Assembly (NCBI RefSeq): GCF_000375485.1
Contig: NZ_AQXE01000002.1
Location: 199,540-255,051, forward strand
Reading direction: 5' to 3'
Source: Desulfovibrio oxyclinae DSM 11498
GTDB lineage: Bacteria > Desulfobacterota > Desulfovibrionia > Desulfovibrionales > Desulfovibrionaceae
DNA: 55,512 bases
This document shows, in pieces, positions 29,433-31,712 of this stretch (the stretch's first letter is position 1; each line of letters begins with the position of its first letter). The notes below the pieces were generated by a model that ran no database searches, was not told the DNA's origin, and worked only from the letters and a program-made list of their open reading frames with translations. The translations under genes were made by a program, and so were the position numbers.

Positions 29433-31712
29433 ATGGAAAACGGCATCCTTGGCCTTATCGGGAATACCCCGCTCGTGGAGCTCAAGCGGCTCAATCCCAA
29501 TCCGCGCGTCAGGATTTTGGCAAAGCTCGAAACCGCCAATCCCGGCGGCTCGGTCAAGGACCGCGTGGCGTGGGCCATGATCCGTCGGGCCGAAGAGAAC
29601 GGCGAGCTCCAGCCGGGCAAGATTCTCATCGAGGCCACCAGCGGCAACACCGGCATCGGGCTGGCCATGGTCGCCGCGGTCAAGGGCTACCCCATCCGAC
29701 TCATCATGCCCGAGACCGCCAGCGAGGAACGCAAGATGATCATGCGGGCCTATGGCGCGGAGATCGAGCTGACCCCCGGTCATCTCGCCACGGACGGAGC
29801 CATCGAGCTGGCCTACCGTATGGCTCGCGAGGAGCCTGACAAATACGTCCTGCTCGATCAGTACAACAACCCTGCCTGCGTCGAAGCGCACTACAACGGC
29901 ACAGGCCTCGAAATATGGGAGCAGACCGGCGGCGAAGTGACGCACGCCGTGGCCACCCTCGGCACGACCGGCACCGCCATGGGCATGGCCCGTCGTCTGC
30001 ATGAGATGGGCGGCGTGTTCGTGGCCGCGGTCGAGCCATATGAGGGCCACCGCATTCAGGGCCTCAAGAACATGCACGAGTCCTATCCCCCCGGCATTTA
30101 CGACAAGTCTGAACTGGATGCCGTCCTGCGCGTGGACGACGAGACCGCCTTCGACCTTTGCCGCAGACTGGCTGCCGAAGAAGGCATCTTCGCGGGCATG
30201 AGTTCCGGAGCGGCACTTGGCGGCGCGATCCGGCTGGCCGAGGACATGGAGCAGGGCACTATCGTGGTCCTGTTCCCGGACGGCGGCGAACGTTACCTCT
30301 CGACCCCTCTCTTCGCTCCCCGCACCCGCCAGGGCGTGCGCTTATACGACGTGGCCCGAGCCGGAAAGGAACTCGTCAGGACCGAGCAGGGCACCGGCAT
30401 CTACACCATGGGCCCGAGCCTCGACAATCCGGCCGGTTTGGATTCATGGCGGCGCGTCCTCGTGGCCGACGTCCTGTTTCGGCATCTGACCCTGCGCGGC
30501 GTGGACGTGACTCCGGTGGCCGGTCTGTCCGACATGGACGATCGCACCCTCGCCGCCGCCCGAGCCCGCGACGCATCCAGAGCCGATTTCGCCAGCCGCA
30601 CCCGCCAGACGATTCTGGATACAGCAAAAGAACTCGGTGTCTCGGAAGCCATGCTTTTCCCCCTGACCGGCCCCAGCGAAGGTACCGCCCTCGACCTGTG
30701 CCGCAAGATGCTCGGCAAGGGGCTGGCCTACGAAAAACTCCGCAGCGTCTATTTCGACATTTTCCGAGACCCGCGCTACGGCGCCTTCGGCCTGCAGGAC
30801 CCGGAACATCTCTCCGCAGGCAAGACAGTTGACCTCGACGCCTACGTCAAGGACAACCCGTTCGACTTCACCCTGCTCAAAAGAGCCACCCTGCTGGACC
30901 TCAAGTTAGGCGACGTGCTTGAAACCGAATGGGGCAACGTCCGGCCGAGCTGGTTCCTGCAGCACGCCGCCTGCGCCACGGAAGTCACCGGACGCACCGA
31001 CATCTTCATAGGAAGCGAATCGCACCGGTTTCCGCATCTCGAAAATCTGCGCGCCATCTGGAGCAGCGCAGGACGCGAAGTGCAGGCATGGATGGTCGCC
31101 AACAGAACCGGCAGCGGCAACCTCGACGGGATAACCCAGCTCGTCGAGATCCTCGGCTCCGCCCACGCCGCCCGCATGTGGCTGCTTTCGGCCCACTACC
31201 GCAAGCCACTGGCCGCCACTGAAGAAAACCTGCGCATGTGGGCCCGTAACTGGCAGCGGGTTCAGGATGCCGCCGCCACCCTCGCCACCATGCAGGACGC
31301 ACCCGGCACAGAAACCGATGACCGCGCCGAACAAATGGTCTTTGACCTCAACGCCGCTCTGCGCGAAGCCATGGACGACGATCTGGCACTGCATCATTTT
31401 TGGCCCGCACTTTTCACCTTCGCCAAAAGCGTCAACACCCTGTCGGCAGAAAGGAAACTGTCTGGAAAGACGGCCCAAATGCTGCTCGAAGCCCTCCATT
31501 CCGCCGACCAAGTGCTCGCAATCATCGACAATGACGCGCTGCCGCACCCGCTCTCAAGCCTTCCCGAAGAAGTACGAGGACTCGTGGCAGATCGCCAGAA
31601 AGCCAGAGCAGAAAAGAATTACACCGAGTCCGACCGAATCAGAGACACGCTGGCAACCAAAGGATTCAAAGTCGAAGATTCAAACCAAGGCCCAAGAGTC
31701 TACCGGATTTAA
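29433..31712 (+). CDS. Cysteine synthase fused to a degenerate cysteinyl-tRNA synthetase-like domain
   Basis: This 759-residue two-part protein. Residues 1 to about 300 form a complete PLP-dependent O-acetylserine sulfhydrylase: Lys42 in NPGGSVKDR, TSGNTG (69-74), GTTGTAMG (177-184), SSGAALG and FPDGGERYLST. Residues about 303-759 align over their whole length with cysteinyl-tRNA synthetase, from VRLYDVARA to the C-terminal ADRQKARAEKNYTESDRIRD helices. The catalytic signatures are lost: HIGH became GLDS (335-338), KMSKS became a GSGNLDG stretch near 560, and of the zinc ligands only His535 is kept. It therefore cannot be a normal synthetase. GGGGGA precedes the ATG at 29433. No sulfur-metabolism neighbours are seen. 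A role sensing cysteine, cysteinyl-adenylate or tRNA is possible (inference). Confidence 0.93.
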   Translation: MENGILGLIGNTPLVELKRLNPNPRVRILAKLETANPGGSVKDRVAWAMIRRAEENGELQPGKILIEATSGNTGIGLAMVAAVKGYPIRLIMPETASEERKMIMRAYGAEIELTPGHLATDGAIELAYRMAREEPDKYVLLDQYNNPACVEAHYNGTGLEIWEQTGGEVTHAVATLGTTGTAMGMARRLHEMGGVFVAAVEPYEGHRIQGLKNMHESYPPGIYDKSELDAVLRVDDETAFDLCRRLAAEEGIFAGMSSGAALGGAIRLAEDMEQGTIVVLFPDGGERYLSTPLFAPRTRQGVRLYDVARAGKELVRTEQGTGIYTMGPSLDNPAGLDSWRRVLVADVLFRHLTLRGVDVTPVAGLSDMDDRTLAAARARDASRADFASRTRQTILDTAKELGVSEAMLFPLTGPSEGTALDLCRKMLGKGLAYEKLRSVYFDIFRDPRYGAFGLQDPEHLSAGKTVDLDAYVKDNPFDFTLLKRATLLDLKLGDVLETEWGNVRPSWFLQHAACATEVTGRTDIFIGSESHRFPHLENLRAIWSSAGREVQAWMVANRTGSGNLDGITQLVEILGSAHAARMWLLSAHYRKPLAATEENLRMWARNWQRVQDAAATLATMQDAPGTETDDRAEQMVFDLNAALREAMDDDLALHHFWPALFTFAKSVNTLSAERKLSGKTAQMLLEALHSADQVLAIIDNDALPHPLSSLPEEVRGLVADRQKARAEKNYTESDRIRDTLATKGFKVEDSNQGPRVYRI

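Follow-up and report, generated by a model that had tools for sequence, protein, structure and literature searches.

A cysteine synthase joined to a CysRS-like domain with a kept anticodon pocket in Desulfobacterota

The eukaryotic kinase Gcn2 carries a dead HisRS-like domain that senses tRNA charging. Together with HisZ it is the nearest in kind to the protein described here, for which we propose, speculatively, a similar role of a dead synthetase-like domain as charging sensor, although Gcn2 differs in its HisRS-like origin, its kinase and its eukaryotic setting. HisZ, a HisRS paralogue that does not adenylate, mediates the inhibition of HisG by histidine, and is likewise a synthetase paralogue without charging activity, attached to the biosynthetic enzyme of its own amino acid (excerpts of PMC9437257). 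HisZ is, however, a separate protein, whereas the domain studied here is fused, belongs to class I and has kept its anticodon-binding module.

Two CysRS paralogues also invite comparison. The mycothiol ligase MshC acts outside translation and is an active ligase (PMC9437257 and PMC2922099, available parts), whereas our protein lacks the catalytic motifs; the 413-414 residues of MshC match the fusion profile over positions 4-305 of 465 only. A comparison with MshC by best-stretch matching is weak, since the true CysRS chains 3sp1 and 9yru were also matched in part. CysRS* of the Desulfobacterales is a second CysRS paralogue within the same phylum, but it is described as having no anticodon domain and as charging SelC* (PMC9437257, available part), whereas in the fusion the charging motifs are lost and the anticodon domain remains. 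On the synthase side, CysM enzymes, including the O-phosphoserine-dependent CysM of Mycobacterium tuberculosis, are single-domain proteins to which the fusion adds 460 residues. The SepRS-SepCysS assembly likewise brings cysteine formation together with a phosphoserine route and tRNA-Cys (excerpts of PMC5424206 and PMC8762117), but is made of other protein families; the fusion implies no phosphoseryl-tRNA synthetase, and its synthase is of fold-type II. In its available part, a review of duplicated synthetases treats CysRS* and MshC as CysRS paralogues and does not have the fusion among them (PMC9437257), nor is it described in the accessible portions of PMC2922099, PMC5424206, PMC3431258, PMC10133479, PMC8762117, PMC9976931, PMC10655014 and PMC11361707. 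Our search of the openly accessible literature, as distinct from subscription papers, found no description of the fusion, and an earlier one is possible.

The D. oxyclinae protein

The window analysed here is a stretch of 55,512 nucleotides of contig NZ_AQXE01000002.1 of Desulfovibrio oxyclinae DSM 11498. One of its genes encodes a cysteine synthase of CysM-like type, its PLP motifs intact, and, in the same chain, a full-length CysRS-like domain (Table 1). A sequence-only reading of this DNA had proposed that the two are joined in one 759-residue protein, which domain profiles and alignment confirm, and that the C-terminal half keeps the CysRS fold, which agrees with the Pfam CysS_C match, the alignment and an AlphaFold2 model in which the fold is retained with high confidence.

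Table 1. Features of the fusion gene, in window coordinates.
Feature	Position	Strand	Remarks
Shine-Dalgarno-like GGGGGA	29422..29427	+	5 nt 5' of the ATG at 29433; sequence reading
Fusion gene, cysteine synthase and CysRS-like domain	29433..31712	+	759 aa, then stop
CysM-like fold-type II PLP enzyme, residues 1-295	29433..30317	+	
Homologue of the CysRS catalytic domain that lacks HIGH, KMSKS and zinc ligands 28, 209 and 238, residues 301-601	30333..31235	+	
CysS_C anticodon-binding module, residues 709-752	31557..31688	+	Pfam CysS_C; alignment

The synthase half shows the PLP lysine and the SGNTG and GTxGT motifs expected of CysK/CysM enzymes, and carries K42, SGNTG at 70-74, GTTGT at 177-181, K212, S257 and D283. 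It passes the NCBIfam cysKM subfamily model with 353.5 bits (cut-off 344.15) and stays below the cut-off of the cysM equivalog for CysM proper (368 bits, cut-off 394.2). From cysS the protein has the CysRS fold with its anticodon-binding module and the residues that contact G34, with R721, R725, Y730 and D734 aligning to R423, R427, W432 and D436 of E. coli CysRS. Against TIGR00435, the NCBIfam cysS equivalog with a cut-off of 340 bits, it scores 150.7 and falls below the cut-off; as controls, the organism's own cysS scores 556.5 and the early, zinc-retaining fusion L186 438.9. A further zinc-retaining fusion, L190 from Caldimicrobium, scores 336.6. The MshC model TIGR03447 gives 43.5 bits, below its cut-off of 485.1.

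Alignment with E. coli CysRS and 41 canonical CysRS places GLDS at the HIGH positions and a deletion at KMSKS, and C28, C209 and E238 correspond to M326, H511 and L539, H234 being the one zinc ligand of four that is kept. The replacements first read from the letters alone are therefore upheld, and the CysRS copy of the window protein looks unable to charge tRNA.

A normal cysS was sought elsewhere in the D. oxyclinae genome, a check attached to the earlier reading, and was found; a canonical CysRS coexists with the fusion in each of the 8 single-contig fusion genomes tested. None was found in the fusion genomes G065, G085 and G019, which lie in 50-490 contigs and perhaps have gaps, while G123 yielded neither canonical CysRS nor fusion; these four genomes have a stated completeness of 97-100% in 30 to 490 contigs, and gaps are likely. 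The sole CysRS besides the fusion in the single-contig genome G355 (L243, G355:C1:2513500-2517000, minus strand) is divergent, with HIGN and KMAKS-like motifs. It was considered as a pseudo-CysRS and rejected as such, the flagged stop preceding the start of the gene.

Distribution, origin and surroundings of the family

The fusion is not confined to the lineage of the window and runs through the sampled phylum, being present in many sulfate reducers and their relatives. The genomes carrying it, which the sequence-only reading had suggested listing, were counted in two samples. In the order, 199 genomes, all at least 90% complete, were searched with the C domain (E 1e-30 or better); 121 matched, G192 through its CysRS only, leaving the fusion in 120 of 199. 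Many members of the order are without it, and the Desulfovibrio-like genus g3 has no genome among the C-domain matches in this sample, indicating that the fusion is dispensable there. In the phylum sample of 297 Desulfobacterota genomes, a fusion was counted when the match reached at least 283 bits and its frame at least 740 aa, canonical CysRS scoring about 230 bits or less; at least 114 genomes carry one, and G212 has a broken copy in addition.

Among GTDB contigs 519 stretches matched, 501 of which encode relatives, and the best 80 of these 501 fall in the Desulfovibrionales, Desulfobacterales, Syntrophobacteraceae, Desulfarculus, Desulfatibacillum and unclassed deltaproteobacteria. With the protein of a Caldimicrobium member as query, fusions of Thermodesulfobacteria and Desulfobulbia were among the matches listed. 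No fusion from outside the phylum was seen among the matches listed (the best 80 of 501, and the best 120 in each of two protein searches). Public names among the fusions listed include cysteine synthase and cysteine--tRNA ligase. DVU0663, a putative D. vulgaris homologue that is set aside here, is called cysK in the available part of one paper.

Both domains lie in one frame at 188 of 189 loci, the other (L139) beginning at a contig end. Four listed proteins have the C domain without PALP (P0015, P0038 and P0076, 3 of 120 listed, and P0166, 1 of 120 listed); their sequences start near the domain junction and they may be split or mis-started genes. Selenocysteine or stop read-through was considered for G402, G483 and G234 and rejected, since no in-gene stop is present when they are aligned with P0001. 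In a quick, unrooted tree that combines the C domains of 53 fusions with 35 canonical CysRS, a single branch separates the two groups (SH-aLRT 100), which fits one origin of the family. It can be seen from this tree that the zinc-retaining fusions lie nearest the canonical side and the Desulfovibrionales, including the window protein, furthest from it.

No neighbour cluster spans the family in the 160 loci with flanks (the largest occurs at 51 of 160), clade-bound clusters being seen among the non-Desulfovibrionales. No tRNA-Cys lies near the fusion gene in the 60 loci scanned of 189, and an Rfam search of 10 loci gave two tRNAs and one TPP element, with no riboswitch for the fusion gene. Neighbours and tRNA placement give a regulatory reading no support. 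The TPP riboswitch, in the flank of L186 (G227, 1945-2061), is 2.4 kb from the gene and apparently unrelated to it. In the window, a methionine sulfoxide reductase A-B fusion (32554-33822, minus strand) adjoins the gene and a divergent MptE-like (DUF115) gene occupies 27494-29500 (minus strand); many Desulfovibrionales loci have a relative upstream, on the other strand. Elsewhere in the window, at 6881-8830 (minus strand), MoeA is joined to a PBP-like domain.

The synthase half and its likely substrate

Of 172 N domains, at least 162 carry the PLP motifs, most of which occur in 171-172. D. oxyclinae itself has a standalone cysteine route, an apparent nifS-cysK-cysE cluster (L008, G000:C9:169290-173150) in which cysE is confirmed by TIGR01172 and the nifS-like gene is assigned by reading. 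An N-domain search of 32 genomes gave the fusion as the sole match at E 1e-25 in G236, G405, G226 and G297, all from outside the order. Among 20 genomes searched for CysE, it was present wherever a standalone CysK was, and was not found in those four or in G323, G262 and G396.

The same pattern was seen across the 114 fusion genomes of the phylum sample. CysK was scored as present if the D. oxyclinae CysK, used as query, gave a match of E 1e-80 or better, a threshold of our own choosing that is flanked by G359 at 7.7e-80 and G420 at 1.1e-85. On this basis CysK and CysE occur together in 52 genomes and are both missing from 58, one genome (G422) having CysK only and three (G336, G249 and G290) CysE only. 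In 55 of the 58 genomes with neither, the CysK search gave one match, presumably the fusion, and in the remaining three (G323, G408 and G325) two or three synthase matches, the extra ones weaker. A tree of 43 fusions contains 8 independent pairs that differ in CysK, and CysE follows CysK in 7 or 8 of the 8 and never goes the opposite way (p 0.008-0.016). In 8 single-contig fusion genomes without CysK and CysE, MetX is absent from all 8 and the cystathionine lyase/synthase family from 7. Since 58 of 114 genomes have neither CysK nor CysE, the synthase half probably works, and does so independently of O-acetylserine; on these gene patterns, the fusion very probably serves as a functional cysteine synthase with no need of CysE. 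This alters the view of the protein's purpose.

Cysteine synthesis may start from O-acetylserine supplied by CysE or from O-phosphoserine supplied by SerC (PMC9855970, available part). With CysE missing, O-phosphoserine is the likely substrate of the fusion. The basic residue K212, invariant in 172 N domains, was dropped as proof of O-phosphoserine use; it is not diagnostic because E. coli CysM also has a basic residue, R, at that column. The idea that the protein ends in a mimic of the CysE tail was rejected, the last residue not being conserved in alignment A1.

What the CysRS-like domain keeps and what it has lost

In E. coli CysRS, G34 of tRNA-Cys is contacted by R423, R427, W432 and D436 (PMC12684709, excerpt). 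For comparison, 168 C domains were aligned from the 189 loci, leaving aside identical copies and the broken or cut L080, L081, L139, L147 and L201; the set is uneven, the MHHL pattern of the window protein being common to 30 of its members. All four contact positions (R423, R/K427, an aromatic residue at 432, D436) are kept in 165 of the 168 fusions and in 41 of 41 canonical CysRS, and the three exceptions have Q at 427. Position 432 is mostly F in the canonical enzymes of this phylum, so F or Y there is normal. We also took the columns that are at least 90% conserved in canonical CysRS and counted a column as kept if the residue is present in at least 80% of fusions. The anticodon module keeps 7 of 10 such columns, compared with 37 of 132 elsewhere (36 of 121 in the catalytic part, 1 of 11 in the linker; Fisher p 0.010, the columns not being independent).

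Mainly because the G34 pocket is kept in so many fusions, we infer that the C domain binds tRNA-Cys, which among the roles guessed in the sequence-only reading has the best support; the conserved anticodon residues could instead serve folding. The reading that we favour, with a probability of roughly 0.45, sees in the fusion an active cysteine synthase with a built-in, CysRS-derived regulator domain that reads tRNA-Cys.

The zinc site offers a different account, in which the domain is an allosteric subunit in the manner of HisZ that senses, or once sensed, free cysteine and no longer meets tRNA. C28 and C209 are both kept in 43 of the 168 fusions, all of which keep H234 and 29 of which keep E238 too, and W205 is kept in these 43 and in all 122 fusions that have neither cysteine; HisZ itself provides the precedent. 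However, the window protein and the other 121 without both cysteines lack the zinc site and yet keep the anticodon pocket, for which pure cysteine sensing offers no reason, and we consider this account rather unlikely. A structural role, with the domain serving to stabilise or oligomerise the synthase or to place it near translation and having no regulatory ligand, is similarly doubtful. It would suit a fold that is kept and modelled with high confidence, and the most conserved stretch of the C domain, residues about 430-510, has near-invariant, fusion-specific residues (E434, K435, T465, R484, L487, L490 and T498) that could form a domain interface; but R721, R725, the aromatic residue at 730 and D734 would be unneeded in a scaffold, and they are nevertheless kept in 165 of 168.

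The charging site tells of graded decay. In the 43 zinc-cysteine fusions, HIGH is usually HLG followed by a residue other than His and KMSKS is often KMSRS, and 13 of the 168 combine both zinc cysteines, H234, HxG and KMS. Such members indicate that the family did not start from a relic that was already wholly dead; the erased active site holds for the window protein and fails as a family trait, being the late state of one branch. Neither HxGH nor the second KMSKS lysine (K269) occurs in any of the 168, and R65, W184, P192, G225, Q241, K269 and Y320, each identical in at least 39 of 41 canonical CysRS, are found in none. These absences suggest that loss of the canonical charging site probably preceded the spread of the family. 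The zinc site, whose state changes at least three times on the C-domain tree, was probably lost later and more than once, and within the phylum there appear to be stages that begin with members keeping zinc ligands and KMS and end with fully dead ones. Adenylate binding, another role suggested earlier, is unsupported because HxGH, K269 and G225 are kept in no fusion. In one MAG, the copy L081 (G035, 5077-7296) misses about 100 catalytic-half residues in frame and keeps the anticodon module, its relative L071 being intact.

These stages bear on the suggestion that zinc-retaining members are bifunctional, making cysteine and loading tRNA-Cys or another acceptor, with the window protein as a decayed descendant. 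The TIGR00435 scores of L186 and L190 relative to that of the window protein, the 13 members just described and public names such as cysteine--tRNA ligase speak for it, but it is improbable given that no fusion has HxGH or any of the seven canonical residues and that a canonical CysRS stands alongside in the 8 single-contig genomes. That the CysRS-like domain makes cysteine persulfide from synthase-made cysteine, as E. coli CysRS does with PLP at K73, K76, K266 and K269 (PMC10655014, excerpt), is very improbable, K269 being absent in 168 of 168 and, among the 122 fusions that lack both zinc cysteines, 103 having R in place of K73.

Under the favoured reading, that of a synthase with a tRNA-Cys-reading regulator domain, the N domain would make cysteine from sulfide and a CysE-independent serine derivative, most likely O-phosphoserine, and the C domain of the window protein would no longer activate cysteine while keeping the pocket that reads G34. 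tRNA-Cys would be bound through the anticodon module, probably in a charge-dependent manner, and would alter the synthase through the conserved stretch 430-510. Regulation by charge is speculative, as is its direction. Free cysteine, sensed through zinc, may possibly add a second signal in the members that keep the zinc cysteines; this would not apply to the window protein. Such control would make sense for bacteria that, like these, live in sulfide-rich surroundings. A bolder and rather unlikely proposal is a bacterial tRNA-coupled cysteine factory, in which a CysE-independent and probably O-phosphoserine-using synthase would work on or under tRNA-Cys held by its own domain; this would parallel the archaeal SepRS-SepCysS link of cysteine synthesis to tRNA-Cys.

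For many of these genomes the fusion is the sole candidate for a cysteine synthase, and the database names cysteine--tRNA ligase and plain cysteine synthase are to be corrected for it. If the favoured reading is true, cysteine output in a sulfide-living phylum, where sulfide imposes its usual limit on cysteine synthase only weakly, would be set by reading tRNA-Cys directly, as a one-protein feedback from translation to amino-acid synthesis. Because living relatives sit at several stages of active-site decay, the family would also be a testable case of a tRNA synthetase turning stepwise into a sensor. The kept pocket gives a hint that cysteine production in these cells is coupled to the state of tRNA-Cys.
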